Positions 1 through 20,602 of a stretch of DNA of 20,742 bases are shown in pieces. Origin of the DNA: a virus. Position numbers and translations under genes: made by a program. Below the pieces are notes generated by a model, which saw only the letters and a list, made by a program, of their open reading frames with translations, had not been told where the DNA came from and did no database searches. Each line of letters starts with the position of its first letter. Positions within the stretch are counted from its first letter, which is position 1. Location of the stretch: the IMG/VR virus record IMGVR_UViG_3300034198_003039, positions 1 to 20,742 of that record; one strand, 5' to 3'.

Positions 1-747
1 AAAATAGCAGAAGCCAAATATAAAATAAAACTTTCCGAAGATGATACTGATACCAGTGACATTTTGTTTCGTAAACTCATAAACACTGTGCCCCTAGATA
101 AACTAGAGACTATTTTTATTATGGGAGGAGAACCTTTTTATACTAAGTCTCACGTTAAAATGCTCAGACATTTGAAAGAGGTACATCCTGACTTAAGTAA
201 AGTTAGTATTCGATATCAATCAAATGGTAGTATCTACCCAAGCGATGAAGTTCTCAAATTATGGGAAGACTATAAGTTTATCGTCTATGGAGCTAGTTTA
301 GATGGTGTCGGTGAAAGATTTAATTACTTACGTTGGCCTCTTAAGTGGCATAGATGTGACCCTATCATTAAAAGATTGATGAATGAAACTAATGCACAGC
401 TTCATGTAAATTGTACTATCAGCCCATTGAATGTTTTATATGTTCAGGACTTGGAAGACTGGTTAAGGGATAATATTCCCCAAAGCAAATTTAAAATGAG
501 AAATTCTCTTATAAGACCCAATGCATGTTTGGGACCAATGGATCTACGTTATGCTAATCACAAGCTAAGAGAAAAAGTATACCGTAATTACGGGGAAGAT
601 CATGACATAAGCAAGATGTTTAGTAACATGGATGTTTATGATGATGCGTCCCCGATGTTCAATTATATTGAACAGATGGATAAGATTCGCCGATTAGATT
701 GGCGTAAAACTTTCCCTGATGTTGTTGATTGTTATTCGAACGTGTAA
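1..747 (+). CDS. Radical SAM protein, C-terminal part (5' end outside window)
   Basis: The reading frame is open from base 1, so the start lies upstream; the first in-frame candidate, a TTG at 64, is inside the conserved domain and is not a true start. The visible 248 residues carry the radical SAM GGEP motif at residues 42-45 (which binds the SAM amino group), a beta-strand pattern with SNGS, and the segment ASLDGVGERFNYLRWPL. That segment matches the other twitch-type radical SAM proteins in this window (GLSLDGMETRGHYIRYPL in the minus-strand gene at 12151-13548). The CxxxCxxC cluster motif must lie upstream of the window. A family member of about 460 residues would place roughly 200 residues outside. 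It ends tail to tail with the next gene, overlapping it by 16 bases. The family assignment is firm; the substrate is unknown. Confidence 0.85.
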   Translation, partial: KIAEAKYKIKLSEDDTDTSDILFRKLINTVPLDKLETIFIMGGEPFYTKSHVKMLRHLKEVHPDLSKVSIRYQSNGSIYPSDEVLKLWEDYKFIVYGASLDGVGERFNYLRWPLKWHRCDPIIKRLMNETNAQLHVNCTISPLNVLYVQDLEDWLRDNIPQSKFKMRNSLIRPNACLGPMDLRYANHKLREKVYRNYGEDHDISKMFSNMDVYDDASPMFNYIEQMDKIRRLDWRKTFPDVVDCYSNV

Positions 748-2730: not shown

Positions 2731-4272
2731 ATGCGATTTAATCCCACAGACTACACTACAGTTTTTCTAAGCTATGACGAACCAAACTGTGAAGAAAACT
2801 ATCAACATTTATTAACACTTAACCCAAATGCTCTGAGAGTACATGGGGTAGAGGGTAGTGACTCTGCACATAAGGAATGTGCAAAACTTGCACAAACTGA
2901 CCGTGTTGTTATCATAGACGGGGACAATTGGGTAAGAGATGACTTCTATACTACTGACATAGATATTGAATACACAGATGAGGATGTTATAAGTTATGCA
3001 GGATATAACATAGTAAACGGTACAAGCTATGGTAACGGTGGTATCAAATGCTGGCCTGTTAAGCATGTCATGGAAATGCGTACTCACGAAAACGGAGATG
3101 ACAGTAGCATTGACTTTGTATTGAACAAGTACATAGAACTAAACAATATAGGTAGTGACTTGCATATTAACCATGGTCCACTACAAGCATGGCGTGCAGG
3201 ATTTCGTGAAGTAATAAAACTTACACGTGACGATAACATAGACTGGCGCAACTATGACAGAGTATGGCGTTGGATGCATCTTGGTGATGACGTTGAGAAT
3301 GGATTATATTCTATCTATGGTGCAAGACTTGCGTATTATATGCTCAAAGTAAATAACTGGGAAGGCTCGAACAACGTTAAGAATTTTGATTTTCTCAATA
3401 AGTTATTTGAACATATGACAAATATAATGCCCGGAACATTATTGGAAGAAGTAAACGTACTGGGTGTATTGATAAAAGAAAAGACCAATGACAACAATAT
3501 TGGTCTAGCACTGCAAAAACAGGACAGTGTTAATTATAAAAATCTTATTAGTAACCCAACACGTAGCCCAGTAAACTATACACCAGAGTATGATATTGTA
3601 TTCATTCATAATAATGAACTAGGTGCAGAAGAAAATTTCAACAAAGTTAAAGAACGTTTCACACGTGCTAAAGTATTAAGTGGGGTGCAAGGTATACACA
3701 ATGCGCATATACGTGCTGCCAAAATGTGCAGTACTGATTACTTTTGGGTAGTAGACGGTGATGCAATTATACATGATGATTTTAGTTTTGTTTACAATGA
3801 TGTACAGTTCTATGAACAACCCACTGTCAGAGTCTTTCGTTCTATCAACCCTGTCAACAAATTAGTATACGGTCACGGTGGAATTAAACTGCTTCCTCGT
3901 CTTGCTACCATGAGAATGAGTACAGGCAACGTTGACATGACCACAAGCATCAGCACTCTATACGAGCCTGTCAACATCATAAGCAATATACATAAGTTTA
4001 ATACAGATGAGTTTAGTGCTTGGCGTACCGCATTTCGTGAATGTGTTAAATTATCTAGTCAAATCATTGATAGACAACAATCAAGTGAGACACTAGATAG
4101 ATTGTTCACTTGGTGTAGTGTTGGGGCTGAAGAACAATATGGTCGTGAAACAATACGCGGCGCATTAATGGGCAAATTGTACGGGGAAGCACATAAGAAC
4201 GATAGTGAAAAACTAAAACTAATTAACAACTATGAATGGCTACATAATGAGTACACAAAACAACTTCAGTGA
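2731..4272 (+). CDS. Tandem-duplicated GT-A-like glycosyltransferase
   Basis: This 513-residue protein is built from two homologous halves, at roughly residues 9-205 and 287-485. Each half has the same ordered motifs. The hydrophobic strand ends in a DxD-like motif: VVIIDGDNW (60-67) and FWVVDGDAI (338-346). A glycine turn follows: YGNGGIK (100-106) and YGHGGIK (380-386). Next come AWRAGFREVIKL (153-164) and AWRTAFRECVKL (430-441), then a W..-G....-Y/G...I.GA..-..-Y helix (181-203 and 461-484). A DGD after a hydrophobic strand is typical of metal-dependent GT-A glycosyltransferases that use nucleotide sugars. Both halves keep the acidic residues, so both may be active, like a two-site polymerase. 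The first ATG is needed because the domain begins at residue 9-11. It opens the plus-strand run, and its 3' end overlaps radical SAM A. Confidence 0.65.
   Translation: MRFNPTDYTTVFLSYDEPNCEENYQHLLTLNPNALRVHGVEGSDSAHKECAKLAQTDRVVIIDGDNWVRDDFYTTDIDIEYTDEDVISYAGYNIVNGTSYGNGGIKCWPVKHVMEMRTHENGDDSSIDFVLNKYIELNNIGSDLHINHGPLQAWRAGFREVIKLTRDDNIDWRNYDRVWRWMHLGDDVENGLYSIYGARLAYYMLKVNNWEGSNNVKNFDFLNKLFEHMTNIMPGTLLEEVNVLGVLIKEKTNDNNIGLALQKQDSVNYKNLISNPTRSPVNYTPEYDIVFIHNNELGAEENFNKVKERFTRAKVLSGVQGIHNAHIRAAKMCSTDYFWVVDGDAIIHDDFSFVYNDVQFYEQPTVRVFRSINPVNKLVYGHGGIKLLPRLATMRMSTGNVDMTTSISTLYEPVNIISNIHKFNTDEFSAWRTAFRECVKLSSQIIDRQQSSETLDRLFTWCSVGAEEQYGRETIRGALMGKLYGEAHKNDSEKLKLINNYEWLHNEYTKQLQ
2755..4185 (+). repeat. 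Internal tandem domain duplication (protein level)
   Basis: Two protein repeats are encoded by 2755-3345 and 3589-4185, separated by a linker of about 80 residues. They share collinear motifs: (V/I)DGD, YG(N/H)GGIK, AWR..FRE..KL, and a C-terminal W...G........I.GA helix. The nucleotide sequences have diverged, so the duplication is old rather than an assembly artefact. Confidence 0.8.
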
Positions 4273-5239
4273 TATTCCTTTTGATAGAATAGTTAAGTTT
4301 GGGCAAGCAAACATGCTTGACATGAACTTGTTTACAGTTAGTTGGATACTTGGAAGATTCTGTAACTATAGTTGTAGCTATTGCTGGCCATATGCTAACA
4401 GTAACATCCCGGATCATCAAGAATTGCCATTGTATAAAAGTACTATAGACAGTATCAAAACACAAGCTAGGCGCAACGGGTTTAATAAATTTCATTGGAG
4501 TTTCAGTGGTGGCGAACCTACTGCATATAAGCATCTGTTAGAACTAACACAACATTTAGATGAGGGCCCGGTAGAAGGTTATCAAAGTGTCCACATGACT
4601 ACCAATTTATCCCCTAGCATTAATTGGTGGTTGCGTTGGGAAAAAGCTACTAGTTTGTTACAGCGTAGAAGTCTTACTGCTAGTTTTCATAGTGAATTTG
4701 CCAAAGAGAATGAGTTTGGAGACAAGATACTAACATTGATGGAAGAACAGGTATATGTAACTGTCAATCAAGTTATGGTACCTGAATTCTTTTGGGAAAG
4801 CTATGAACGACTACAAAGATTTCACGAGCGTGGAATCAATGTCACACTCAAGCCGCAAAGTGACCCTACTGCTAGCTTTGTTGTTAGTGGGTACACTGAT
4901 GAAATGGTACAGATTATGCGTAATGGATTCCCTCAACATGCTAATAATGAACCTGTACTACAAGTTAAACTGATAGATGATACTAATAAAGTACATTGGT
5001 TAGATCAGGCAGAACGATTCAATAGTTTTGGATTTAACAAGTTTAAAGGTTGGATGTGCAACAGTGGTTATCAGGGCATAGTTATACGTAGCGATGAAGT
5101 AAAACGTAGTTACAGTTGTAATGACACACCACTAGGTACACTTACTAAAGGCTTTACTATCTTTGATAAACCTGTAATTTGTACAACAACCTCATGTGTA
5201 TCTAGCGCAGACAGTAAGATTCCTAAGGAAAAGGTATGA
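4232..5239 (+). CDS. Radical SAM protein A (twitch/SPASM-like C-terminus)
   Basis: This is a radical SAM enzyme of 335 residues from the first ATG at 4232. An ATG at 4247 (330 residues) is equally possible, and neither has a good ribosome site. The [4Fe-4S] motif is CNYSCSYC (C44, C48, C51), and SGGEP at 92-96 is the SAM-binding motif. A C-terminal cysteine-rich segment (C276 in KGWMCNSG, then C296, C317 and C322) should bind an auxiliary iron-sulfur cluster. The same C-terminal layout (KGW.CN.G, C, LG.., PVIC, C....AD.....K) occurs in radical SAM C at 11268-12188, so the two are paralogs. The gene overlaps the GT-A-like gene by 26-41 bases and joins SGNH protein 1 by an ATGA overlap. The substrate is unknown; carbohydrate, peptide or RNA are all possible. 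Confidence 0.85.
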   Translation: MNGYIMSTQNNFSDIPFDRIVKFGQANMLDMNLFTVSWILGRFCNYSCSYCWPYANSNIPDHQELPLYKSTIDSIKTQARRNGFNKFHWSFSGGEPTAYKHLLELTQHLDEGPVEGYQSVHMTTNLSPSINWWLRWEKATSLLQRRSLTASFHSEFAKENEFGDKILTLMEEQVYVTVNQVMVPEFFWESYERLQRFHERGINVTLKPQSDPTASFVVSGYTDEMVQIMRNGFPQHANNEPVLQVKLIDDTNKVHWLDQAERFNSFGFNKFKGWMCNSGYQGIVIRSDEVKRSYSCNDTPLGTLTKGFTIFDKPVICTTTSCVSSADSKIPKEKV

Positions 5240-6003
5240 CCAAAAGGGGTTATGATTTTGTTTGGGACGATGTACCTAGACGCATACGAAAAGGTTATTT
5301 TCTGCATGCGGGTCCAGAATGGGTAGGGAATTTCAGCGGCATGGATAGTAAGGATTTATTCGAAAAGAATTTATTAACTCAACCAATAGATTGGTTCTAT
5401 CGTGACAACCCTATAGAGTATAAATTAAACAAATATGGGTACAGAACAGTAGACTTTGATACAATCGACTGGGCTAACTCAATCGTAGTGTTTGGGTGTA
5501 GTAATGTGTTTGGTGTTGGATTGCATGAAAGAGATACACTATCAAGTCAGTTACATGGTTTGACTAATATACCTGTTATTAACATGGGGATCGGAGCTAG
5601 TTCTATGGAGTACTCACTATACAATAGTGTTATACTCAACGAACACTATCCTACCCCCAAAGCGGTTATACATCTATGGAGTGCAATAGATAGAGCTACA
5701 TATTACAATAAAAAAAACATAGAGCATCACGGCACATGGAACATGACACCAAATAATTATATGGACTTATACAGCACTGACCCTACACATGCTAAGGTAC
5801 ATGCTATACTAGCACAAATGATTAGTAAGCAGATATGGGTTAGTAAAACAAAATACTATGAGGCTAGTTTTTTTGGCAATACTGCAGGGAAATTAAATTT
5901 ACCTACAATTACAGTAGAAGATTACGCAAGAGATTTATCACATCCAGGAAGATTATCAATACAAAAATTAGCACTAGATATTAAAGACAAATTAAAATTA
6001 TGA
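5236..6003 (+). CDS. SGNH-type hydrolase/esterase-like protein 1
   Basis: This is a 255-residue protein. It shows SGNH-family blocks in order: a beta strand followed by FGCSNVFGVG (86-95), where the GDS motif is GCS and S89 is the expected nucleophile; NMGIGASS (116-123), carrying the block II Gly and nearby Asn; a hydrophobic strand IHLWSAIDR (145-153) near block III; and DLSHPG (233-238), the block V Asp-x-x-His. SGNH proteins hydrolyse or transfer O-acyl groups, often on polysaccharides. The N-terminal 80 residues, with FYRDNPIEYKLNKYGYR, resemble the segment that precedes SGNH domains in phage proteins. An AAGGAAAAGG stretch lies just before the ATG, which overlaps the stop of radical SAM A (ATGA). 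Its 3' end overlaps the methyltransferase gene the same way. The substrate is not known. Confidence 0.65.
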   Translation: MTKRGYDFVWDDVPRRIRKGYFLHAGPEWVGNFSGMDSKDLFEKNLLTQPIDWFYRDNPIEYKLNKYGYRTVDFDTIDWANSIVVFGCSNVFGVGLHERDTLSSQLHGLTNIPVINMGIGASSMEYSLYNSVILNEHYPTPKAVIHLWSAIDRATYYNKKNIEHHGTWNMTPNNYMDLYSTDPTHAKVHAILAQMISKQIWVSKTKYYEASFFGNTAGKLNLPTITVEDYARDLSHPGRLSIQKLALDIKDKLKL

Positions 6004-6605
6004 AAATAGACACAGGGCATTTGCATTATTGGATGCAGGCAATTAGACAAAGTGAAAACCACATACGTACCATGGATGCATTCTGGAGTGGACAACTTAA
6101 AAGCAAAGAATGGCTAATAGATAACTTAGATTTTGTTGTTCATCCCTATATTAACAAAACAAAACTGTCAGTAGACATTCACGGTGGCTGGGTTGGGGTA
6201 CTTGCAAGTATGCTATTCCAAAGTAACTTAAACATATCAACTATTCGTAGTATTGATATCGATCCTTCTTGCGAACCAATTGCCACAATGATGAACAAGG
6301 GTGAAGAAATGGAAGGTAGATTTAAAGCTATAACTGGTGATATGTGTACTGTACGTTCCGACAGTGATATAATCATTAATACATCGTGTGAACATATTAC
6401 ACAGGATCAATATGATTTATGGTTAAGTGGTCTACCCCATAATAGCCTACTGGTATTACAAAGCAATAACTATGACATAGAAGAACATGTTCGTACAGCT
6501 AATAGTTTAGAACATTTCAAAGAACAATCTAATATTAAAATACTTTGGCAAGGTCAATTAGAACTACCACTATATACTAGATACATGATAATAGGAAAGC
6601 AATAA
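6000..6605 (+). CDS. Class I SAM-dependent methyltransferase-like protein
   Basis: This is a 201-residue protein with a Rossmann-type methyltransferase layout. Motif I is VDIHGGWVGVLA (58-69), a variant of the usual VDxGxGxG. Motif II is SIDIDP (84-89), whose acidic residue should bind the SAM ribose. The segment DIIINTSCEHI (123-133) corresponds to motif IV. The N-terminus is a helical cap of about 50 residues. It starts by ATGA overlap with SGNH protein 1 and ends as TAATG with radical SAM B, so it should be made together with them. The nature of the methyl acceptor is not visible. Motif I lacks the second glycine of the strict consensus, so activity is likely but not certain. Confidence 0.65.
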   Translation: MKIDTGHLHYWMQAIRQSENHIRTMDAFWSGQLKSKEWLIDNLDFVVHPYINKTKLSVDIHGGWVGVLASMLFQSNLNISTIRSIDIDPSCEPIATMMNKGEEMEGRFKAITGDMCTVRSDSDIIINTSCEHITQDQYDLWLSGLPHNSLLVLQSNNYDIEEHVRTANSLEHFKEQSNIKILWQGQLELPLYTRYMIIGKQ

Positions 6606-7681
6606 TGTTTCGGTTTAACCAATTAGAAGACATACACTTAGAGATAACAAATAACTGCCAAGCAAGTTGCCCTATGTGCAGTCGTAACGTTAACGGTGGG
6701 TTAGAGAACCCATTAATCAAAGTAACAAACTGGACATTAGATGAGTTTAAAACAATACTTTCACCCACAGTATTGAATCAAATCAAACGCTATTACTTCT
6801 GTGGTAACTTTGGTGACCCAATGATGAATAACGATTTAATTGAAATGATTGAATATAGTGTATCAATTAACCCCGAATTGAATATCAGAGTACATACAAA
6901 CGGTGGCGCACGTAATAGTGAATGGTGGACTAGATTGGCTAAAGCATTACCCAAAACTCATTTAGTTACATTTGCGCTAGACGGTTTAAGTGATACACAT
7001 CATTTATATAGGGTAGGCACAACATATGAGAATGTATTGCGCAATGCCAAAACGTTTATTGACGCGGGTGGAAGTGCCGAGTGGGTATATATTAAATTCA
7101 AGCATAATGAACATCAAACAGAAAGTGCTAGACAAATAGCAACAGACATGGGCTTTAAAGAGTTTACTATCAAGAATAGTAGCAGATTTATGATAGAGCC
7201 TAAGGTTAATGTAGTAGACCGTGAAGGGAAATATACACACAGTATCGAGCCTGCCACCGATACACCCATGAAGTTTATTGACATTAAAACCATTGAATCA
7301 TTCAGTGATATTGTAAAAGATGCGGTTATAGACTGCAAAGTACAAAAAGATAAAGAAATTTATATAGATGCACATCGTAACTTATATCCCTGCTGTCATA
7401 CTGCTAGCATTCCATATATGCGTGAACGAATCAACGGGTTTCACTCTGATAAAATCAAAGAAATCACTACTACAATGATGGGCCAACACTTGGACATGAT
7501 TAATACTATCGGCGAAGTTAATACCACTGTTCGTAGTATTCAGGATATTATTGATAGTACTGAGTATCAAACAATGTGGGATGAATACTGGACTACTAAG
7601 AAACTTCTTATATGTGCTAGAACATGCGGTACTAGTAATAAGATAGACTTTTCACTACCGAGAGAACAATGGAAACAATAG
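6605..7681 (+). CDS. Radical SAM protein B (SPASM/twitch-like C-terminus, altered GGEP motif)
   Basis: This is a 358-residue radical SAM protein. The cluster motif is ITNNCQASCPMCSRN (C18, C22, C25). The usual GGEP is replaced by CGNFGDP (66-72), as seen in some SPASM-type enzymes with G-x-GDP. VHTNGG (96-101) and FALDGLSD (123-130) are standard strand motifs. C-terminal cysteines C244, C263, C264, C337 and C341 form a SPASM- or twitch-like auxiliary cluster region (YIDAHRNLYPCCH, then CARTCG). The family includes peptide-modifying and carbohydrate-modifying enzymes. Its start shares a base with the methyltransferase stop, and its end overlaps SGNH protein 2 by 13 bases. It differs in architecture from radical SAM A and C, so it probably performs a different step. 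Confidence 0.85.
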   Translation: MFRFNQLEDIHLEITNNCQASCPMCSRNVNGGLENPLIKVTNWTLDEFKTILSPTVLNQIKRYYFCGNFGDPMMNNDLIEMIEYSVSINPELNIRVHTNGGARNSEWWTRLAKALPKTHLVTFALDGLSDTHHLYRVGTTYENVLRNAKTFIDAGGSAEWVYIKFKHNEHQTESARQIATDMGFKEFTIKNSSRFMIEPKVNVVDREGKYTHSIEPATDTPMKFIDIKTIESFSDIVKDAVIDCKVQKDKEIYIDAHRNLYPCCHTASIPYMRERINGFHSDKIKEITTTMMGQHLDMINTIGEVNTTVRSIQDIIDSTEYQTMWDEYWTTKKLLICARTCGTSNKIDFSLPREQWKQ

Positions 7682-8451
7682 GATTTTTTGGCGACAGCTT
7701 CTGTGAACATTTAAACAATAAACACAGTATAGACAACAACTATAAAACATACATGGAATTATGCCGTGACAAACTAAACTTAAAGATAGTTAACATGGGC
7801 ATGGGTGGCAGTAGCATATATGATGTTGTATTAAAGCAGTTAAACCCACTAATTAAAAGTAACAGTGTGCCCGATGTATGTGTATTCTTTTGGACTATTC
7901 CACAAAGGTTATATCATCCTGTTTGTCGCAGTATTCATTTATCTAGCGCATTAGCAGGATATAATAGCAAGAAAGAAGAATGGTTCAGTAAAACTTACCC
8001 TAACGAAACTAATTGGTTTAGTAAGGATATATGGGATGCCGCACAGCAATACTTCTTGCATCTATATGACGAGGAGAAAAGTCAGTTAGAGTATATTAGC
8101 TTTTTACAGTATATAGACAACAATATACTACCACAATTAAAGTGTAAGATAATACACTTATGGAGTATAGGTAATGTTAAAGATTGGGAATTAGATAGCT
8201 TTAAGCCAGAGAATATTAATTATGTACATGATTGGAAAAATGGGGTAGAAGTGCGCCCATCACTAATGAGCATATCAGCAGTTAATGGTAATACATTTAA
8301 ATACCCTATGATAGATGATAGACCCAATCACTTAGATGGACAATTAAAGAATGACATGGTATTTGATTATATTGTACAAGCATTAAAACATTATGAAGAC
8401 AGCAATTTACTTGACTACACAGACGGAGTTAATAAATTATGGAACGATTAA
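7669..8451 (+). CDS. SGNH/GDSL hydrolase-like protein 2
   Basis: This is a 260-residue protein beginning almost directly with the SGNH block I: IGFFGDSFCEHL, with S10 as the putative nucleophile. Block II is NMGMGGSS (42-49). A hydrophobic strand with FFWTIPQR corresponds to block III. DDRPNHLDG (216-224) supplies the block V Asp/His pair (D217 or D216 and H221). The canonical GDS is intact, unlike the GCS of proteins 1 and 3. No signal peptide is present, so it acts in the infected cytoplasm or on the virion. The start overlaps radical SAM B and the end overlaps the PLP enzyme gene by 13 bases each. Esterase or acyltransferase activity on a sugar is a reasonable guess, but no substrate can be read. 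Confidence 0.7.
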   Translation: METIGFFGDSFCEHLNNKHSIDNNYKTYMELCRDKLNLKIVNMGMGGSSIYDVVLKQLNPLIKSNSVPDVCVFFWTIPQRLYHPVCRSIHLSSALAGYNSKKEEWFSKTYPNETNWFSKDIWDAAQQYFLHLYDEEKSQLEYISFLQYIDNNILPQLKCKIIHLWSIGNVKDWELDSFKPENINYVHDWKNGVEVRPSLMSISAVNGNTFKYPMIDDRPNHLDGQLKNDMVFDYIVQALKHYEDSNLLDYTDGVNKLWND

Positions 8452-9293
8452 GAGTAGCGAATGACTATTCTATTGACTATTTAGAAATAGATCGTCCATC
8501 ACCTCTGTCCGACAATCATATTGAGAGTATGATTATGGATGTATTGTCCGGTAAATTAGATCGTGACATATCAGACAATGTATACAGTAATTTCAAAACT
8601 GAAGTAAACAATTATTTTAATAATAGTAATTTAAACAACTTAAAAGGGTTAGATACATTTAATCGTATAGATATCATAAACGGTTGCACACAATATATAG
8701 ACAATCTTTATATGCAGGGTCCTGTGCAAGTATTACCCGGTGACTATAGATATCACAATAGATTAAATTTGTCGTATATCAAAGATGTTGGTAGTTTAAT
8801 ACCAGACATTCCATTAATTATAGCAATGCCTTTTCCACGAATAGGTGCAATGCATGATGATATGACAGAGATACTACACGAATGCAGTATTAAAAACATT
8901 ACAGTACATATAGACGGTGCTTGGATTACATGCTGTAAAGATATAAGTTTTGACTTTAACCATGATGTTATAAAGTCAGTGGGCATCAGCTTAAGCAAGG
9001 GTTTGGGTCTAGGATGGAATCGTGTTGGGTTACGATATACCAAAGAGTCTAAGATAGATAGCATTACAATAATGAATGACTTCCGTATGAATCTACGTGC
9101 TACAGCAATGATTGGATTACACTTTGTACGAAACTTGCCCACTGATTATCTATGGAATAAGTACAGTGAGTCGTATTATAAGATATGCAAGGATTTCAAT
9201 TTAACCCCAACTAATAGTATCTATCTTGCACTAAGAAACAATCAACCAGTGGGTATTAGCCCCTTAATAAGGTATTTACATGAACGAATTTAA
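8439..9293 (+). CDS. Compact PLP-dependent fold type I enzyme (aminotransferase-like)
   Basis: This is a 284-residue protein with the hallmarks of fold type I PLP enzymes. NGCTQYID (81-88) resembles the phosphate-binding turn after the first strand. VHIDGAW (156-162) has the Asp (D159) that pairs with the pyridine nitrogen. ISLSKGLGLGWNRVGLRY (183-200) has the Schiff-base Lys K187 in a S-x-S-K context, with an Arg nearby (R195). It is about 100 residues shorter than typical class I/II aminotransferases, and the usual C-terminal small domain is reduced, so it may depend on a partner or have a narrowed function. It overlaps SGNH protein 2 upstream and the PP-loop gene downstream. Possible products are an amino sugar or an amino acid derivative; this is an inference. 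Confidence 0.7.
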   Translation: MERLRVANDYSIDYLEIDRPSPLSDNHIESMIMDVLSGKLDRDISDNVYSNFKTEVNNYFNNSNLNNLKGLDTFNRIDIINGCTQYIDNLYMQGPVQVLPGDYRYHNRLNLSYIKDVGSLIPDIPLIIAMPFPRIGAMHDDMTEILHECSIKNITVHIDGAWITCCKDISFDFNHDVIKSVGISLSKGLGLGWNRVGLRYTKESKIDSITIMNDFRMNLRATAMIGLHFVRNLPTDYLWNKYSESYYKICKDFNLTPTNSIYLALRNNQPVGISPLIRYLHERI

Positions 9294-10020
9294 TGTTGAT
9301 GGGGTAAGTATACCCTTCGAAAACGATGTACAGTCTATCGCTATAAGTTTGTCTGGTGGTGCGGACAGTGCATTACTAGCATATCTATTGTGTGAACATA
9401 TTGAGTCAAACAAACTACCTATCGATGTGTTCATTATATCACACATTCGCATGTGGAAGACTAGACCATGGCAGAAATACAATCAATTAGATGTATATGG
9501 GTGGTTATGTAGACGTTTCCGTACCATTCATTTCACACGCTATGAGAACTTTATTCCACCTGACATTGAATGGGGTGACAAGGGTGCAACATTGATAGAT
9601 GAGTATGGAAAAGAAAGTTCCGGAGACATCATTGAGATACGTGCATTTGCAGAATATATTTGCCATCAGGAAGACATTGATGTATATTATAATGCTGTTA
9701 CACGCAATCCAAGAAACGTTGACTTCAAGGGCATGGAAAAGCGTGATATTGAGCCTACAGAAGACAATAAGCATCTAAGACTAATGACACACATGGGTCG
9801 CATTGCTGTACATCCTTTTAGATTTATTGAAAAATCATGGGTAATTAAACAATATAAGGATAAGAATATATTAGATTTATTGAGCAACACACGTAGCTGT
9901 GAGGGTGAGTTTGATGGCGTTAACTATATAACCTACAATGTAGGAGATAGTGTTCCATTATGCAGAGAATGCTTTTGGTGTAAAGAACGAGAATGGGCAT
10001 TAAAACAAAATGACTTGTGA
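9280..10020 (+). CDS. PP-loop ATPase, QueC-like (adenine nucleotide alpha hydrolase)
   Basis: This is a 246-residue protein. The PP-loop is SLSGGADSALLAYLL (23-37), which holds ATP for adenylation of a carboxylate or similar group. Further along are a P-F segment followed by KSWVIKQY (205-212) and an NTRSCEG motif, as in QueC/ExsB proteins. The C-terminus has SCEG followed by LCRECFWCKERE, a C-x(n)-C-x2-C-x2-C zinc-like cluster as in 7-cyano-7-deazaguanine synthase. QueC makes a nitrile from a carboxylate using ammonia and ATP. The pathway partners QueD and QueE are not recognisable here, although several radical SAM proteins are present. Other PP-loop roles (amide synthesis, thiolation) remain possible. 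The gene overlaps the PLP enzyme gene by 14 bases and the next radical SAM gene by 11. Confidence 0.75.
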   Translation: MNEFNVDGVSIPFENDVQSIAISLSGGADSALLAYLLCEHIESNKLPIDVFIISHIRMWKTRPWQKYNQLDVYGWLCRRFRTIHFTRYENFIPPDIEWGDKGATLIDEYGKESSGDIIEIRAFAEYICHQEDIDVYYNAVTRNPRNVDFKGMEKRDIEPTEDNKHLRLMTHMGRIAVHPFRFIEKSWVIKQYKDKNILDLLSNTRSCEGEFDGVNYITYNVGDSVPLCRECFWCKEREWALKQNDL

Positions 10021-11275
10021 TAGTAAAACATTCTGTATGCACCCATTTACCGGGCTTGCTACACGTGAAGACGGTGCAATTACTGCATGTTGTCGCAGTC
10101 ATCCTATAGGGTTTATTGATAAAGATAACTTAGAAACTATCTGGAACAATGACACAATGCGTAGAATACGCAAGCAAGTACTGAATAATGAACGTCCACC
10201 TGAGTGCGAACCATGTTTTAGTTTAGAAGATCAGGGTGTTGAAAGTCTAAGACAAAGACATATTACTAATCGTATTCCCGAGAGCAGAATTAACTTATAT
10301 CCCAATGCATTAAATGGTTTAAGTGAAGATTATTCTATGCCATTTGAAATAGCTACAATGGAATTAAAACTTAATAACTTGTGTAATCTTAAATGTCGTA
10401 TGTGTCATCCAATGGACAGTACTAGTTGGAATGATTGGGGTGAAATTAAAGACTATTATAAGCGTGAAGGTAATATCATGTACGCTATAGTAGAAGAACA
10501 TAACCTAGAGAATAAACCATTTTTAGATAAGTTCCAAGATAACCCTGAATGGTGGAATAGTTTAGAGAAACTATTACCATACTTCCGTCGTGTAGAGTTT
10601 GCAGGGGGAGAACCCTTAATGGATCCTCAGCATTATCGTATATTAGATATGTTAAGCCGTTATGGCCATCAAATAGAAATTAAATATGCAACCAATTTAA
10701 GCATGTTGGGTAAAGGATCACGCAATATATACGACTATTGGCCTAAGTTTAAAAGTATCGCAGTTAATGTTTCTATTGATGGAATGCGTGACAGTTATGA
10801 ATATATTCGTGGTAATGCAGACTATGATATAATGATATACAATATTAAAGAAATACAGAATATTAAAAACATTAGTAGGATAGTTGGGGCTGTAACTGTG
10901 CAAGTAAGTAATGTATTAGAATTAGATAAGATTATCGAATACTTTTTAGATGATTTGGGTATTATCTTTCATACGCATCGTGTTGAATATCCAAAACTAT
11001 TAAGTGCGCAAGTAATGCCCCTAGAGTTAAGACAACTAGCAGTAGAACGATTAGAGGCTGTTAAAAGTCGTGTACCATTATTTAAATCATGCGTAGAAGA
11101 ACCTAGACTGATTCCATATACATTATTACAGATACAGGATAATATCAATTATTTAGAAGCTAGGGATCAAAGTGAATTATGGCATGATTGCGTAGAGTTT
11201 AATCATAAATTAGATAAAAGCCGAAATCAATTAAGTTTTGAAACTGTGACGCCGGAGTTTAAATCTTATGTATAA
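10010..11275 (+). CDS. Radical SAM protein with N-terminal twitch-like iron-sulfur domain (1)
   Basis: This is a 421-residue protein with reversed domain order. An auxiliary-cluster (twitch-like) domain comes first: FCMHPFTGLA with C9, ITACCRS with C27/C28, and ECEPCF with C66/C69. The radical SAM core follows: LKLNNLCNLKCRMCHPMDS (C125, C129, C132) and FAGGEPLM (197-204), then a SIDGM strand motif. This arrangement is known in twitch domain-containing radical SAM proteins that are common in marine phage metagenomes. A conserved W/F-rich insertion (NPEWWNSL) follows the cluster motif and is shared with the gene at 12151-13548 (NPEFWEEI), so the two are paralogs. No substrate is established for this architecture as far as I know. 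The ATG overlaps the PP-loop stop, and the 3' end overlaps radical SAM C by 8 bases. Confidence 0.88.
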   Translation: MTCDSKTFCMHPFTGLATREDGAITACCRSHPIGFIDKDNLETIWNNDTMRRIRKQVLNNERPPECEPCFSLEDQGVESLRQRHITNRIPESRINLYPNALNGLSEDYSMPFEIATMELKLNNLCNLKCRMCHPMDSTSWNDWGEIKDYYKREGNIMYAIVEEHNLENKPFLDKFQDNPEWWNSLEKLLPYFRRVEFAGGEPLMDPQHYRILDMLSRYGHQIEIKYATNLSMLGKGSRNIYDYWPKFKSIAVNVSIDGMRDSYEYIRGNADYDIMIYNIKEIQNIKNISRIVGAVTVQVSNVLELDKIIEYFLDDLGIIFHTHRVEYPKLLSAQVMPLELRQLAVERLEAVKSRVPLFKSCVEEPRLIPYTLLQIQDNINYLEARDQSELWHDCVEFNHKLDKSRNQLSFETVTPEFKSYV

Positions 11276-12188
11276 AGTTAAAAGCCGTTGGAATCACGAA
11301 GGTAGTATTAAGATTGAATGGAACTTAGGGAAACGATGTAATTACGATTGTAGTTATTGTCCATCAATTATACATGATAATACTAGCCCGCATACTGATA
11401 TTAATATACTTAAGGCTACTGTAGATAAACTATGTGATTTAGAGAAGCCTATTCGCTTGAGTTTAACTGGTGGCGAGCCATGCGTTCATCCACACATAGA
11501 AGAATTAATATCTTATATCAAAAGTAAGGGTTTTTGGCTAAGTATTACTACTAATGGAACTAGAAAAGCTAGTTGGTATAATAGTCAAACAACAGTTGAC
11601 CAGTGGGTGTTTAGCTTACACTTTGAATATGAATGGCTAGATATATTACATACTATTAAATCGGTAGATGAGAACATGATTCATACTCATGTATTAGTGA
11701 ATGTTATGGCTCATCATAATCATATGGAAAACGTTCGCACAGCTTCCAGATTATTAGAAAGTCTTACTATTAATCATGGAATTCGCAGAATACGTTGGAC
11801 AGAGGGTGACCACGATTTGTTTGACGATATGAAGTATGACCAGAATGATTTAGACTGGATAATGAGTAAGACTAGCACAGTACAACCTAATACAGTATTA
11901 ATATACAAGGATAGAGAAGAAATGTATCATGCCAACGATGTGATTAAAAAGCATTTAAATCAATATAAAGGTTGGAATTGCAATGCGGGTTTAGAAAGTT
12001 TAATGATTAACTGGGACGGTGAAGTACATCGGGCTACGTGTAGAGTTGGTGGAACATTAGGAAATATATATACCAACTCGTTCGTTGTACCCACCAGTCC
12101 TGTTATTTGTGATAGAAACTACTGCACATGTGCGGCAGATATACCATTAACTAAAGTAAGTGCTGAAGCTCAGGAAATACAGATTTAA
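11268..12188 (+). CDS. Radical SAM protein C (twitch-like C-terminus)
   Basis: This is a 306-residue protein. The cluster motif is CNYDCSYC (C24, C28, C31), the SAM motif is TGGEP (67-71), and ITTNGT follows. C-terminal cysteines C238 (KGWNCNAG), C258, C281 and C286/C288 (YCTC) should bind an auxiliary cluster. The end of the protein (LGNIY...PVIC...C.CAAD.PLTK) aligns with radical SAM A, with which it also shares the CNY(S/D)CSYC cluster motif. It is the last gene of the plus-strand run and converges on the next radical SAM gene with a 38-base coding overlap. Because it is a paralog of A, the pair may act on related substrates. Confidence 0.87.
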   Translation: MYKVKSRWNHEGSIKIEWNLGKRCNYDCSYCPSIIHDNTSPHTDINILKATVDKLCDLEKPIRLSLTGGEPCVHPHIEELISYIKSKGFWLSITTNGTRKASWYNSQTTVDQWVFSLHFEYEWLDILHTIKSVDENMIHTHVLVNVMAHHNHMENVRTASRLLESLTINHGIRRIRWTEGDHDLFDDMKYDQNDLDWIMSKTSTVQPNTVLIYKDREEMYHANDVIKKHLNQYKGWNCNAGLESLMINWDGEVHRATCRVGGTLGNIYTNSFVVPTSPVICDRNYCTCAADIPLTKVSAEAQEIQI

Positions 12189-13548
12189 AGTCTGTGTTTC
12201 GTTGCTTATCCATTGTATTGATATATTCTCTAAAGTCAGGCAATAGATTAGTATGATCCTCAGCGTCCATCCAATCTAATATACCCTCCCAACGTTTCCA
12301 TCCATAGGGATTAGTTGTCCAGAATTCAGTATCCTGTGTATAATTATCCCAGAGCCATTGTTTTAATTCATTGAATAACTGTCTAACATGTTGTTTATCT
12401 TGTGCAGGTAATACACGTAAACTTAACCAAGTGGGTATCCACAGTAAATGTACACCAATTAATCCACCGGCCATTGTTTGTCCTGATGCATTTTTATCAA
12501 AATTAACCTTCTTAAAGTTACTTTTAACTTTCCATTTAATAAAGTCTGGTACGTGTTTAATGTTTAATATCTGTACAGCAAACGCAATGTTAGTTTGGAT
12601 GTTGTCTGGAGCATTGTCTAGCATCTGTAATGACTGTTCTATCACATTCCAATCTAATGGATATCTGATATAATGTCCACGAGTTTCCATACCATCTAAG
12701 CTAAGTCCTACTTTGACTTTACGGAAATGACTCCATACATCAATAATATCTTGGTCTACTAACAATCCATTAGTGTTATAGCGTAAGCTAATCTTATCTG
12801 CATATCCACGCTTGATAATCTCTAATAAGAATGTTTTATGCTCACGTATCATTAATGGCTCGCCACCGGCAAAATATAATTGTTTAATGTTAGGTATTTG
12901 TTCGTATATTTCTTCCCAAAACTCAGGATTTTCATGCCAGAAGTTATTAAAGTCTTTACGGTCCCAACTCATTTGTTTCTTAATTAATTCACTTTGAAAG
13001 ATGGGAAATACTTTCTTATGTTCATTGACCCATTGACTACTATCATGAGGGCTACACATGATGCATTTTAAATTACAAGTATGACCTAATCGTAAGTCTA
13101 AGTACTGTAATTTATAGGGTACGTTTCCATCTTCATCTGTCTGACGAATTAATTCAGGAATATCTACACCATCATAGTGCCATGACCCTGTTTCCCAGAT
13201 ACGTTTACTAGCAATACCCTCAGTTTCTTCTTTAAAGCATTTGGTACAGCTTAGTGGTATTTCTCCAGCAAGCATTGTTTTACGTACACTACGCATATAG
13301 TCATTGTTAAATGCTTGAGTAGGTAAATCACTGCCAAAATTAGCGGGTTTACCATCTTCCATTTTAACTAACCCTACAGTATAATCACCAGTATCTGCCC
13401 CGCTAGCGTTAGCAACACAGCATATACGCATGTCACCATTGGGTCTAGTTGCTAAGTGAATCCAGGGTAATACGCAAAATGTCTTGCTTCCCGATACTTG
13501 TGCTATCTGATTCTGCCACTTAGTTAATTGTTCGATGTTTTCTTCCAT
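12151..13548 (-). CDS. Radical SAM protein with N-terminal twitch-like iron-sulfur domain (2)
   Basis: This is a 465-residue protein starting at the ATG whose first base is 13548; a GTG one codon upstream is less likely. The N-terminal domain has FCVLPWIHLATRPNGDMRICC (C25, C43, C44) and CTKC (C101, C104). The core has LGHTCNLKCIMCSPHD (C158, C162, C165), FAGGEPLM (226-233) and LSLDGM. The N-terminal CxxP(W/F) and CC motifs, the two-Cys pair and the C-x3-C-x2-C spacing match the gene at 10010-11275, and its core also resembles the partial gene at 1-747. So three of the six radical SAM genes belong to this subfamily. It reads towards the main run and diverges from the oxygenase gene at 13579. 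TAAATA lies 4 bases before the ATG, and no Shine-Dalgarno is visible. Confidence 0.88.
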   Translation of the reverse strand: MEENIEQLTKWQNQIAQVSGSKTFCVLPWIHLATRPNGDMRICCVANASGADTGDYTVGLVKMEDGKPANFGSDLPTQAFNNDYMRSVRKTMLAGEIPLSCTKCFKEETEGIASKRIWETGSWHYDGVDIPELIRQTDEDGNVPYKLQYLDLRLGHTCNLKCIMCSPHDSSQWVNEHKKVFPIFQSELIKKQMSWDRKDFNNFWHENPEFWEEIYEQIPNIKQLYFAGGEPLMIREHKTFLLEIIKRGYADKISLRYNTNGLLVDQDIIDVWSHFRKVKVGLSLDGMETRGHYIRYPLDWNVIEQSLQMLDNAPDNIQTNIAFAVQILNIKHVPDFIKWKVKSNFKKVNFDKNASGQTMAGGLIGVHLLWIPTWLSLRVLPAQDKQHVRQLFNELKQWLWDNYTQDTEFWTTNPYGWKRWEGILDWMDAEDHTNLLPDFREYINTMDKQRNTDFKSVFPELQHLL

Positions 13549-13562
13549 CACATATTTAGTTC

Positions 13563-13578: not shown

Positions 13579-14253
13579 ATGATTTCCAAGACTAACATGA
13601 TTGTGCCAAAAGAACTGTTTAATACAATAGTAGATATTGTGCCAAATGTTGAGGGCAAGTTTGTATTGAATCAACCTACCGGACGTTTCTTCTATGATAG
13701 TTGGACTATCAAAGAAGAATTCAAGGGTACAGCGTGGGAAATACTGTTAGCAATGCTTCCAGCACATGGAGAAGCACGATTAATATATCTTAAAAGTGCA
13801 ACTTGTTATACTACCCATAGTGATATAGACGACAGGTATCATTTGAACTTAAAGGGCGGATATAGTTATCTAATTAACTTAGACAATCAACAGATGTATC
13901 CCGTTAGTCAAGACCATGTTTGGTATGATATGAACGCGGGTGTCAGACATACTGCTACTAATTTTGGATATTGTGACAGAGTACAATTGGTGGTTAGAAA
14001 ACTTCTGTTAGACAATAAACTAAGTAATCCAGTAACTATAAGAATATCATCTAACATACGTGACTTAGAGATGGCCCGCTTTATATTTGATGATACAATA
14101 AGTCCATGGTTAAATAACGCAAATAAAAGACATATAATAAGTGATTTTAAATTAAGTGGCTATGATGTGGTATTTAACATGGAAGAAAGTTGTATATCGT
14201 CTTTACTAGAAATATTACCCAAAGAATTTAGTTATGAACAAGTATCTATATAA
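13579..14253 (+). CDS. 2OG-Fe(II) oxygenase-like protein, aspartyl/asparaginyl beta-hydroxylase type
   Basis: This is a 224-residue protein from the ATG at 13579. The frame is open further upstream, but that region overlaps the opposite gene and its regulatory spacer. The double-stranded beta-helix signature is clear: CYTTHSDID with H80 and D82 as iron ligands, then GVRHTATNFG with the distal His H124, and R134 (YCDR) as the 2-oxoglutarate anchor. The H-x-D...H...N-G...R spacing is that of the Asp/Asn beta-hydroxylase group. The final 80 residues are extra. It is the first of two plus-strand genes and overlaps the next by 20 bases. Hydroxylation of a protein or small molecule is expected, but the substrate is unknown. 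Confidence 0.75.
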   Translation: MISKTNMIVPKELFNTIVDIVPNVEGKFVLNQPTGRFFYDSWTIKEEFKGTAWEILLAMLPAHGEARLIYLKSATCYTTHSDIDDRYHLNLKGGYSYLINLDNQQMYPVSQDHVWYDMNAGVRHTATNFGYCDRVQLVVRKLLLDNKLSNPVTIRISSNIRDLEMARFIFDDTISPWLNNANKRHIISDFKLSGYDVVFNMEESCISSLLEILPKEFSYEQVSI

Positions 14254-14887
14254 GATTGATTACAGTGATTTAACACAGTGTACTACCAATTTACTATATA
14301 CTCCTACAATTATTGATAATTGCGTATTGGATATGAACTGGAATAGTACCGCATATCATGATAAAGTGCTTTCAGATAGTCTATTAGCTTGGTTCTTTGA
14401 ACGTGAAGCTACTGGTATCGATAAGTTTAGTAAGTACCCTTGGGCACCTGAAGTATTAGATATAAACTATATTAATAGACACATTTATTTTAAATGGTAC
14501 GGAGAAACATTAAATCATATTCTACTAGACCCTACTAGAGATATCAATAGTGAATGCCCTGACTGGAAAACACAATTAAATGTTATATTAAATGATATCA
14601 TTAGTGGGGGATATTATAAAATGACACTATATCCACATTGTTTCTACTTAGACGACAATAAGCGTATACATACTATGGACTTTTATGGTTGTGTGCCTAT
14701 GAATGATTGTATGATAGAGTTATCTAAAGTTGAGGATATGATCGGTGTTGAGAGCGTAGTTAGATTTGCTGAAGCACGTGTAGGAAACAACATAGATTTC
14801 AGTATATTCTTTAATAGACTATTAGAGACTTACATGGATAAGTATTGGGTTGACAACCCCTTCCCCAGAGTTATCTCCAAAAGTTAA
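14234..14887 (+). CDS. Unknown protein, degenerate kinase-like, paralog 1
   Basis: This is a 217-residue protein homologous to the one at 16268-16951. Shared blocks are: APEVLDINYINRHIYFKWYG (71-90) against VPKILDIDHKNRKLYLEVDG; PDWKTQLNVILNDI against PDWDTQMIDIINAH; and YYKMTLYPHCFYLDDNKRIH followed by TMDFYG (127-152). The last block looks like the catalytic loop and DFG segment of atypical kinases (aminoglycoside or lipopolysaccharide kinase type). Here the His is offset, the DF pair is D149-F150, and the usual catalytic H-x-D-N is not seen. It may be a phage pseudokinase or a scaffolding protein. It overlaps the oxygenase upstream by 20 bases and the oppositely oriented oxygenase by 17 at its 3' end. 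I do not recognise a named family. Confidence 0.6.
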   Translation: MNKYLYKIDYSDLTQCTTNLLYTPTIIDNCVLDMNWNSTAYHDKVLSDSLLAWFFEREATGIDKFSKYPWAPEVLDINYINRHIYFKWYGETLNHILLDPTRDINSECPDWKTQLNVILNDIISGGYYKMTLYPHCFYLDDNKRIHTMDFYGCVPMNDCMIELSKVEDMIGVESVVRFAEARVGNNIDFSIFFNRLLETYMDKYWVDNPFPRVISKS

Positions 14888-15425
14888 ACAAATACTTGTC
14901 GGTTGCTCCTGCGTTAGAGCCTGCATGCCAGCTTTTGCGGCTTGTCCATTGAAATGTGTCACCCACAACTTGATTCCATAAGCATTGATCTTCTACAAAG
15001 AACGCATGTCCCGGCTGACTAGGTATGATATGAGTGTGAAAACGTTTTGGCTCCAGTGTATTACTTAATACCCCTTCATCGTCTGTTACATCCCAATGCC
15101 AGGGTGCTACGTTGCCCGGCTTAACTCTGCTAATCCAGCAATAATAAGGTCCGTCTAAGTCTATGTTAACGAACTTAGCAAAACGTTCTACTACAGTGAT
15201 ATCAAATTGTGTACCCGGGAAATACATATCCCAACTTGCGTTTCCACCTTCGTCTACTGTTTTGTATCCTGCTTGATCCCATACACTAGATACTTCTTCT
15301 AATCCGGGAATGATATCAGTGGCTCTATGCCTAGGTCCTACATATGCAGGTGGTACATTCTTAACTTGTTCTATGACTAGATTCCAGTCAATGATATTAC
15401 TACAATTTCCTATATATTTTAACAT
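14871..15425 (-). CDS. 2OG-Fe(II) oxygenase-like protein
   Basis: This is a 184-residue protein. The beta-helix iron ligands are APWHWDVTD (H110, D112) and SWHAGSNAG (distal H167). RFHTHIIPSQPGHAFF lies between them, and a basic residue after the distal His (K177) could bind 2-oxoglutarate in place of the usual Arg. The W-H-x-D plus H-x-G-x-N-x-G pattern is that of aspartyl beta-hydroxylase-like phage proteins. Its start shares a base with the stop of the upstream oxygenase gene (TAATG), so the two are translationally coupled. It converges with the kinase-like gene. An Fe-dependent hydroxylase is likely; its target is unknown. Confidence 0.7.
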   Translation of the reverse strand: MLKYIGNCSNIIDWNLVIEQVKNVPPAYVGPRHRATDIIPGLEEVSSVWDQAGYKTVDEGGNASWDMYFPGTQFDITVVERFAKFVNIDLDGPYYCWISRVKPGNVAPWHWDVTDDEGVLSNTLEPKRFHTHIIPSQPGHAFFVEDQCLWNQVVGDTFQWTSRKSWHAGSNAGATDKYLFNFWR

Positions 15426-16231
15426 TAGTAACTTTCTAAATGGCTGATACCCAACTCTTGTCTAAATTGTTCAGTAAATTTTCCGTCAATTCTTAGTCCA
15501 TAACTTTGTTCCATAATTTTTTCTCCACCATGCCAGTCTTGGTCATTCCACCAAGCCGCTCTAGTGTTTAAATATGTTTTATTCTTAGATTCAGGATCCC
15601 ATAGATAAAACGCTTTTTTAGTATTTGGACGAACATGAATGAATTCGTTACGATGTGGTCCAGGATTGTTAATTCCATTCTTAGCATCTAAGTCTCTATG
15701 CTCAAAGGGTATCCCATCTGCTTCACAATGAAAGAATATAACACGGCCTATATGTTCAAAGATATTATCAGTAATCATATCTTCAACCCACTTAACTACT
15801 CCGGGAAAATATTGTGCTTCTTCTGTTAATTTACGGGGTGCTGTTCTATCATCCCATGAACCTTCTTCCCATAAGAAATAATAGATATATGGATCGTATG
15901 CACCCATTGCCATTTTAAGATAACGGGTGAACTTGTTACGTTGTTTATAGTTATTAAAATCCTTAAATAGATCAATACCACCTTGATAGATAGGATCGTC
16001 TTTAGGTAACTGCATAAATTCTTCCATAGCTTCATAAATGGGTTTCCAGTTATGTCTATAGCTCATATTTTCAAACGTAAATCCGGGCTTCATCCAAGTG
16101 CCTTCTTTAGCAAACTCTCTTGCTTCAGCAAATCCACGAATAATTTCTGGTTGCAATTCATTGAACCGTTCCATATTGATATAGTTTTCCATATCAAAAT
16201 ATGGCTGATTATTAATTCCTATTAATGACAT
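15425..16231 (-). CDS. 2OG-Fe(II) oxygenase-like protein with long N-terminal extension
   Basis: This is a 268-residue protein. The C-terminal half carries FEHRDLDA (H178, D180), KKAFYLWDPESK (205-216), DWHGGEK (H234) and SYGLRIDG (R247). This gives the ordered H-x-D...H...R set of 2OG-Fe(II) oxygenases. The first 160 residues are helical and unrecognised. The ATG at 16231 has a good ribosome site (AAGGAA, 4 bases before) and a perfect TATAAATA box 29 bases upstream. It is therefore the best-supported late transcript start in the window. The downstream oxygenase is expressed from the same transcript. Two such enzymes in one unit may hydroxylate successive positions or different targets. Confidence 0.7.
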   Translation of the reverse strand: MSLIGINNQPYFDMENYINMERFNELQPEIIRGFAEAREFAKEGTWMKPGFTFENMSYRHNWKPIYEAMEEFMQLPKDDPIYQGGIDLFKDFNNYKQRNKFTRYLKMAMGAYDPYIYYFLWEEGSWDDRTAPRKLTEEAQYFPGVVKWVEDMITDNIFEHIGRVIFFHCEADGIPFEHRDLDAKNGINNPGPHRNEFIHVRPNTKKAFYLWDPESKNKTYLNTRAAWWNDQDWHGGEKIMEQSYGLRIDGKFTEQFRQELGISHLESY

Positions 16232-16260: not shown

Positions 16261-16268
16261 TATTTATA
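16261..16268 (-). promoter_or_regulatory. T4-type late promoter box TATAAATA
   Basis: The minus strand reads TATAAATA, an exact T4 late consensus, 29 bases before the ATG at 16231. A start about 6 bases downstream would give a leader of about 20-24 bases that contains the AAGGAA site. The box overlaps the 10-base palindrome TAAATATTTA (16257-16266), so the plus strand also gets an AGTAAATA box, 5 bases before the divergent ATG at 16268. Confidence 0.65.
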
Positions 16269-16951
16269 TGAAATATGACTACTACTACAATAAGCTACCG
16301 GGACAAGAGCCATGGCGAAATAACTTAATCTACACTAGTTTAATGAGTGAGGACAAGAAAGTTTTTGTGCAATGGTATTATAACGATGAAGTCTATCATG
16401 GGGGTCAAAATCAAGTGATATTGCCCGAATTGATGCAGGAAAAATGGGAACGTGAGGTTAAGTATGCACAACTGATGAATGGGGCATACCCTGATTTAGT
16501 TCCTAAGATTCTTGATATAGATCATAAAAACCGTAAATTGTACTTAGAAGTAGACGGGGATGACTTTTGGCAACGTAGTCATGAACTGAATAGTTATTAT
16601 GATGTACTACCCGATTGGGATACACAAATGATTGACATCATCAATGCTCATAAGAATTTGGGATTGCACAAATATAGTATGCATCCATCAAGCTATTTTA
16701 TTGTTAATGGTAGATTGAAGTCAATCAACTATTTCTTTACATATCATAAGACTGAACCTCAAGTTAGTATTAAGGAAGTTGAAAGTCATATCTATAGTAC
16801 TAGACAAGATGAGATGCGCAAACACATAGAAAGTTTAGGAATAGAATGGGATGTGCCACAACCATTTACGCTATTAGACAAATTATGCTGGGAATCTTTT
16901 AGAAAGAATTATCCTGACGAGTTTATTGATAGAGTTAAATGTTTAAAATAA
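16268..16951 (+). CDS. Unknown protein, degenerate kinase-like, paralog 2
   Basis: This is a 227-residue protein from the ATG at 16268. A TTG at 16247 is in frame but lies within the promoter spacer. It is a paralog of the gene at 14234-14887: VPKILDIDHKNRKLYLEVDG (78-97), PDWDTQMIDIINAHKNLG, and YSMHPSSYFIVNGRLKSINY (136-155). The DFG-like Asp of paralog 1 is replaced here (INYFF), so if this is a kinase fold it has lost its metal-binding Asp. Both paralogs sit next to oxygenase genes, which suggests a shared role. The 3' end overlaps the next gene by 13 bases. No named family is recognised. Confidence 0.6.
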   Translation: MKYDYYYNKLPGQEPWRNNLIYTSLMSEDKKVFVQWYYNDEVYHGGQNQVILPELMQEKWEREVKYAQLMNGAYPDLVPKILDIDHKNRKLYLEVDGDDFWQRSHELNSYYDVLPDWDTQMIDIINAHKNLGLHKYSMHPSSYFIVNGRLKSINYFFTYHKTEPQVSIKEVESHIYSTRQDEMRKHIESLGIEWDVPQPFTLLDKLCWESFRKNYPDEFIDRVKCLK

Positions 16952-20567: not shown

Positions 20568-20572
20568 ATATA

Positions 20573-20580
20573 CTCCTTTT
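20573..20580 (-). promoter_or_regulatory. Strong Shine-Dalgarno AAAAGGAG
   Basis: The minus strand reads AAAAGGAG-TATAT-ATG. It decides the start of the cell wall hydrolase at 20567 in favour of the in-frame ATG at 20588. Confidence 0.75.
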
Positions 20581-20584
20581 CTAT

Positions 20585-20602
20585 ACATAGTTTACACTAT
20601 GT
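20585..20602. promoter_or_regulatory. Perfect 7-bp inverted repeat over the -10 box (possible operator)
   Basis: ACATAGT and ACTATGT, separated by TTAC, form a perfect inverted repeat (20585-20591 and 20596-20602). It covers the -10 hexamer of the proposed hydrolase promoter. A dimeric repressor site is a natural reading. A short terminator hairpin for the upstream gene is an alternative, but no U-run follows. Confidence 0.4.

Follow-up and report, generated by a model that had tools for sequence, protein, structure and literature searches.

Gene content of the locus

The analyzed window is a virus record of 20,742 bases, considered over its whole length. Its central part is occupied by ten consecutive genes (Table 1), nine of which follow each other on the plus strand with overlaps of 1-14 bp; the tenth, g14, is convergent and shares 38 bp with the end of g13. 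All ten genes listed in an earlier interpretation made from the letters alone (the sequence-only reading) are present. Every gene of the run is under purifying selection, with pN/pS values of 0.09-0.40 in the comparison with the closest long relative (one pair). Since this selection acts on every gene and the genes are conserved across 94 viral loci (see below), the run is more than a product of chance. An Rfam search of the window found no RNA.

Table 1 Genes and features of the 20,742-base window
Feature	Coordinates	Strand	Basis or remark
Truncated sixth radical SAM gene	1..747	+	Runs off window start, CxxxCxxC part outside; PF04055 24.9 bits
g04, duplicated glycosyltransferase-A-like protein	2731..4272	+	PF00535 22.5 bits, just below cut-off of 23.3
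Ten-gene run (g05-g14)	4232-13551	nine genes +, tenth convergent	
g05, radical SAM, C-terminal auxiliary-cluster (twitch-like) Cys set	4247..5239	+	PF04055 39.7 bits
g06, SGNH-like, variable member	5236..6003	+	GxS and DxxH motifs; 9/94 loci
g07, putative class I methyltransferase-like protein (motif only)	6000..6605	+	
g08, radical SAM, SPASM-like C-terminus	6605..7681	+	PF04055 39.1 bits
g09, SGNH-like, variable member	7669..8451	+	PF00657 E=0.055; GDS and DxxH-type motifs; 10/94 loci
g10, short fold-type-I PLP enzyme	8439..9293	+	Invariant D159, SxSKG Lys187
g11, QueC-like PP-loop ATPase family	9280..10020	+	Four invariant Cys
g12, N-terminal-twitch radical SAM	10010..11275	+	NF033640 326.4 bits; PF13186 SPASM at 9-69
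g13, radical SAM, C-terminal auxiliary Cys set	11268..12188	+	PF04055 42 bits
g14, N-terminal-twitch radical SAM	12151..13548	-	Convergent with g13; NF033640 392.3 bits
g15, probable iron/2OG-type oxygenase (motif only)	13579..14253	+	HxD...H motif
g16, kinase-fold-like protein	14234..14887	+	g16/g19 profile
g17, probable 2OG oxygenase	14871..15425	-	Invariant H110, D112, H167
g18, probable 2OG-oxygenase-like protein	15425..16231	-	Invariant HRDL and H/R set
g19, kinase-fold-like protein	16268..16951	+	Aligned with g16
g20, acetyltransferase-like (sequence reading)	16939..17493	+	Often after g19
g22, FkbM methyltransferase	18155..19009	-	PF05050 60.8 bits
Cell wall hydrolase at window end	19971-20588		PF07486

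Radical SAM proteins

Five genes of the run (g05, g08, g12, g13 and g14) encode radical SAM (rSAM) proteins, as had been proposed, and PF04055 exceeds its cut-off in each of them. The three architectures distinguished before are also borne out: g05 and g13 have a C-terminal Cys set, g08 ends in a SPASM-like region, and g12 and g14 begin with a SPASM/twitch region. The two latter proteins match the family of twitch domain-containing rSAM proteins (NF033640) over the whole model with about twice its cut-off of 170 bits.

The CxxxCxxC motif is retained in nearly all full-length members of the five families (g05 65/66, g08 74/79, g12 68/68, g13 93/93, g14 86/86), and the C-terminal Cys sets of g05, g08 and g13 are conserved as well. 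An alignment of 16 diverse g05 relatives contains over 100 invariant columns, and their conserved start suggests that g05 probably begins at the ATG at 4247 and not at the opening of the reading frame at 4232. The closest structure matches of the rSAM proteins are scattered over enzymes acting on sugars, lipids, nucleotides and peptides, and some of the proteins show a weak similarity to QueE. Homologs of g08 occur in the T4-like phage Mosig, in Campylobacter phages and in one Rhodobacteraceae MAG.

A truncated sixth rSAM gene at the very start of the window had been missed. It matches the rSAM families phrog_1802 and phrog_14086, and at its position the 98-kb relative G001 possesses two R35-type rSAM genes. 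Four clustered genes of the R35 family (N-twitch-like) are also found in Vibrio phage K566 (L180:11962-18698), only three of them being annotated as radical SAM.

The g13 gene stands out by its relationships. With the g13 gene of locus L006 it shares 61% identity, compared with 69-93% for the other genes of the run, whereas it is 86-88% identical to the g13 genes of L086-L089. Moreover, L006 carries an rSAM gene of the R13 family between g13 and g14 that is missing in the window. Taken together, this pattern is a sign of gene exchange.

Partner enzymes in the run

The assignment of g11 as a PP-loop enzyme is supported by its motifs and by structure prediction. The SGGADS sequence, corresponding to the SGGxDS motif, and the residues C207, C228, C231 and C234 are invariant among 24 aligned relatives, and the AlphaFold model (pLDDT 92.3) has the fold of PP-loop enzymes of the QueC/TilS/thiolase type. 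The viral models nearest to this fold are mostly phage QueC proteins. Thus g11 resembles the 7-cyano-7-deazaguanine synthase QueC in its PP-loop, in four conserved cysteines with a CxxCxxC arrangement and in fold, but it differs in staying below the family cut-off and in that the module does not include other queuosine genes. PF06508 (QueC) matches six of the 24 aligned members (best E-value 1.9e-6) and not the window protein itself, and none of the 14 long records contains a family member above the PF06508 cut-off. A profile search with g11 against PDB sequences gave nothing significant. We confirmed no relative of g11 in a scan of 84,980 cellular genomes with two peptide patterns, and INPHARED contains no relative of either g11 or g12.

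The PLP enzyme g10 was likewise recognized correctly. Besides the invariant lysine, its AlphaFold model (pLDDT 92.5) is matched by Foldseek with a probability of 1.00 to fold type I enzymes of the AspAT, HisC, threonine-phosphate decarboxylase and C-S lyase types. It is closest to the fold-I enzymes acting on amino acids and not to DegT sugar aminotransferases. PDB sequence profiles yielded nothing significant for g10 or g07.

The remaining three assignments are weaker. SGNH motifs in g06 and g09, joined in g09 by a weak GDSL profile match, would agree with the proposal, but Pfam GDSL is significant for their relatives only. For g07 the proposed methyltransferase function is suggested by motifs, without a match in the profile libraries; the g07 profile does match Mosig_00090, which is annotated as 'putative methyltransferase' (E=3.9e-17).

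Genes adjoining the run

The glycosyltransferase-like gene g04 adjoins g05 upstream, and the two are adjacent in 18 dereplicated loci. Downstream, g16 and g19 were combined in one profile, which finds protein kinases (E=2.7e-4). In PDB profile searches g17 matches the beta-hydroxylase 7v4f weakly and not significantly (E=0.2), and g18 has no match; a PHROG search with g20 was equally negative. The conserved gene set runs past position 13548 into g15-g20, and the ten genes are not established as the complete route that the sequence-only reading proposed.

Conservation across viral loci

Viral contigs were scanned with g11 and g13 as queries, which gave 155 loci, 94 of them after dereplication. 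These loci are mutually related contig fragments, among which g05 is present in 73, g07 in 78, g08 in 67, g13 in 92 and g14 in 85; the choice of queries biases the counts of g11 and g13 only. For 43 loci at least 7.5 kb are available on either side of g13. Within this full-flank set g12 is found in 43/43 (100%), g14 in 42/43 (98%) and g15 or g15b in 41/43 (95%), followed by g05, g07 and g17 (each 35/43, 81%), g11 (30/43, 70%), g08 (28/43, 65%) and g10 (20/43, 47%). Among the downstream genes, g18 reaches 74%, g19 65%, g16 63% and g20 44%. Few of these loci carry the window's two SGNH genes (5/43 and 7/43, 12-16%). Loci of 20 kb contain 5-11 rSAM genes with a median of seven.

The gene order is kept in part. 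In 42 of the 43 full-flank loci g12 directly precedes g13, and 36 have a convergent g14 close by. However, in 30 of the 35 loci with g05 this gene and g13 lie on opposite strands, so the single run of nine genes in the window is one arrangement among several. The sequence-only reading had proposed a search for conserved co-occurrence in the same order and had named free shuffling of unrelated cassettes, with an order that is not conserved, as the observation that would speak against it. Membership is conserved for g05, g07, g08 and g11-g14 to a large extent and for g10 in about half of the loci, but the SGNH pair is variable and blocks are rearranged. That the genes other than the SGNH pair are not freely shuffled cassettes is thereby largely supported.

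Two further features recur around this module. A four-gene cassette with an amidinotransferase is inserted after g13 in L061 (3736-4917) and in about ten loci; it is related by profile to counterparts in Campylobacter phages. A conserved protein of about 750 amino acids, termed x45, adjoins the module in 15 loci (L066:18426-20696, L165:3234-5474).

Carrier phages and tRNA arrays

Contigs bearing the module reach 364 kb. T4-like major capsid genes are present in six of 24 long contigs with the module, which agrees with the proposed phage origin, and one of these genes is 64-67% identical to those of the jumbo T4-like phages PBECO4/121Q and Vibrio phage 2.275.O. Judged by these genes, the view that the carriers are T4-like phages, some of jumbo size, is supported. 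The 14 long records examined for gene content have 7-17 rSAM matches each, most of them inside the module. The module of G001, the relative closest to the window, has PAAR, nrdA and proteins of virion or baseplate type as neighbors; VrlC and gp14, which bound the pelagimyophage host recognition cluster with its tail fibres, were not located there. In other contigs it is flanked by a tRNA array or by other accessory genes.

In nine long contigs there are 28-42 tRNA genes, most of which form a single array at a distance of about 0.5-12 kb from the module, on one side or the other, and the fragments G002, G009 and G019 combine the module with 0-2 tRNAs. This proximity could stem from a plastic region common to both or from a tRNA-related role of the module. 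Many long relatives have arrays of about 19-42 tRNA genes with a near-full set next to the module, among them L163:6624-18815 (G001), L169, L172, L175 and L148. Additionally, ARAGORN reports a tmRNA gene of its tmRNA* class at L172:7886-8279 (G003) with the tag ANAANDEVYALAA. It is probably of the permuted form and might help to name the host.

Nucleotide-sugar activation (PF00483) was found in 0/14 long contigs, a canonical GT2 glycosyltransferase exceeds the cut-off in 2/14, and NDP-sugar dehydratases lie mostly outside the module. Full synthesis from nucleotide sugars was therefore rejected as a candidate for the phages studied, and we speak of tailoring and not of synthesis in the following.

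Possible functions of the module

The reading that we prefer, although we rate it at somewhat below an even chance, is that the module forms the core of a tailoring pathway in T4-like phages that acts on a component of the host surface or the virion. The enzymes would work one after another on a single substrate that is not made from nucleotide sugars by the phage itself, such as a glycan or lipid of the host envelope or an attachment on the tail fibre. The rSAM proteins might perform C-H chemistry, the PP-loop enzyme might activate a carboxylate or form an amide by adenylation, and the PLP enzyme might contribute amino-group chemistry. The 2OG oxygenases, the acetyltransferase, the SGNH and FkbM proteins and the glycosyltransferase-like genes could then provide variable decorations. 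The purpose could be an altered receptor recognition or superinfection exclusion, in line with what has been suggested for the pelagimyophage host recognition cluster (PMC7029224).

Tailoring is the best reading because the specific routes tested failed and because of the analogy with Mosig and with a cellular relative of g08. It agrees with the conserved membership and strongly linked core in the 94 loci, with the retention of active-site motifs in almost every full-length member, with purifying selection, and with module homologs near tail genes in Mosig and in the Campylobacter phages CP220/CPt10 as well as virion genes beside the module of G001. Against it stands that the 14 long contigs have no nucleotide-sugar activation and few GT2 enzymes, that NDP-sugar dehydratases lie mostly outside the module, that g10 is not DegT-like and that only some of the modules have tail genes as neighbors. 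The sequence-only reading had suggested a surface glycan or a modified nucleotide as target. Distant homologs in host-recognition or tail regions, close to DegT and carbamoyltransferase genes, would be in line with this suggestion, but PF00483 is lacking in the 14 long contigs and the module does not include the canonical queuosine pathway.

A somewhat less probable view, which we consider possible, stresses the exclusiveness of the route to viruses. In this case uncultured large phages would be the sole holders of the PP-loop family and of the rSAM genes constantly associated with it, and the resulting modification, perhaps of their own tRNAs or of the virion, would have no parallel in cells.

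The substrate might also be proteins of the phage particle itself, such as those of the tail fibre, which would undergo hydroxylation, epimerisation, C-methylation or glycosylation. The joint occurrence of many probable 2OG oxygenases (g15, g17, g18 and the O5 and O18 families) with peptide-type SPASM/twitch rSAM proteins would suit such a role, as would the position beside virion genes in G001, Mosig and the Campylobacter phages. However, this adjacency is only suggestive, the rSAM structure matches point to several substrate types, and neither a peptide-recognition domain nor a precursor was detected in our analysis, so we regard protein modification as rather unlikely.

Hypermodification of tRNA, for instance of the near-complete set of the phage, could support translation or confer resistance to anticodon nucleases. 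The large tRNA arrays near the module and the QueC/TilS/thiolase-type fold of g11 are in line with this, and kinase-like and 2OG proteins are also known in tRNA modification. Nevertheless, the explanation appears improbable, given the three fragments with few or no tRNAs, the lack of a TGT and the distance of about 18 kb between the island of Mosig and its three tRNAs. Both features may merely share a plastic region.

At least as improbable is the production of a free small molecule or peptide natural product, such as an antibiotic, a signal or a cofactor. The enzyme mix is similar to that of biosynthetic clusters, and about ten relatives have the amidinotransferase cassette. Two cellular relatives of g08 were obtained by a genome-wide pattern scan; one of them has a clear biosynthetic context, with genes for a carbamoyltransferase, a DegT aminotransferase, a JmjC protein, a B12-rSAM and a GMC oxidoreductase as neighbors. 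On the other hand, no NRPS/PKS, exporter or resistance gene was seen, nor was a precursor peptide, whose absence had been noted before; the gene overlaps leave no space for one within the run. A RiPP cluster likewise found no support, as the run has no space for a precursor and no match to a recognition element or domain was obtained.

It is also conceivable, with a small probability, that accessory cassettes have gathered in a plastic region and share no common pathway. Block rearrangements, duplications, the many optional genes and the deviating identity of g13 to L006 could be explained in this way, but g12-g13-g14 together with g15 in 95-100% and g05 and g07 in 81% of the full-flank loci argue against it. 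Very improbable, finally, is a 7-deazaguanine modification of nucleotides or DNA (queuosine- or archaeosine-like), for which the QueC-like fold and weak profile of g11 and the weak QueE similarity might be cited, but which is at odds with the failed QueC cut-off in 14/14 long records, with PTPS/QueD in only 6/14 and outside the module, and with TGT in 0/14; the canonical queuosine/deazaguanine pathway was rejected as the identity of the module for these reasons.

Comparison with known phage islands

Phage islands with multiple rSAM genes are as a kind already reported. They have been noted since 2010 and were called unusual, with no function given. The Campylobacter phages CP220/CPt10 carry 11-12 rSAMs (PMC2853527), and rSAM cassettes belong to the host recognition clusters of pelagimyophages (PMC7029224). 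In contrast, we found no description of the defined partner set including g11 in the literature searched, and the rSAM matches to g08, g13 and g14 in INPHARED are only 20-35% identical. This partner set, consisting of g12-g13-g14, g05, g07, g08, g11 and g15, is now defined across many phages, and its PP-loop enzyme is apparently virus-specific. A curiosity has thus become a defined gene set that can be expressed, and the cultured phage Mosig offers a related test bed.

Mosig EXVC030M (MT647606.1; PMC7029224) has a T4-like island with several rSAMs and with homologs of g07, g08, g10, g13/R13 and the SGNH families, which lie between the tail fibres and VrlC. The island also encodes hydroxylases, a desaturase, a DegT-type aminotransferase, a carbamoyltransferase and a methyltransferase. 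It differs from the window in gene order and in having no family match to g11, g12, g14 or g05 at the cut-off used.

In CP220/CPt10 (PMC2853527) each cluster comprises five rSAM genes beside baseplate-lysozyme and PAAR genes, and the cluster of CP220 additionally has genes with a nucleotide-diphospho-sugar-transferase domain. Both phages share the g08/R25 and R13/g13 families with the module and the amidinotransferase family with some relatives of the window, but the identity is low (22-28%) and there is no match to the g11 PP-loop enzyme or the N-twitch proteins.

Two other large phages rich in rSAM genes can be likened to the carriers of the module by their description: a T4-like TARA genome has 12 such genes (PMC5332604), and in Aeromonas phage 332-Vera eight of them lie inside the structural cluster (PMC12390700).
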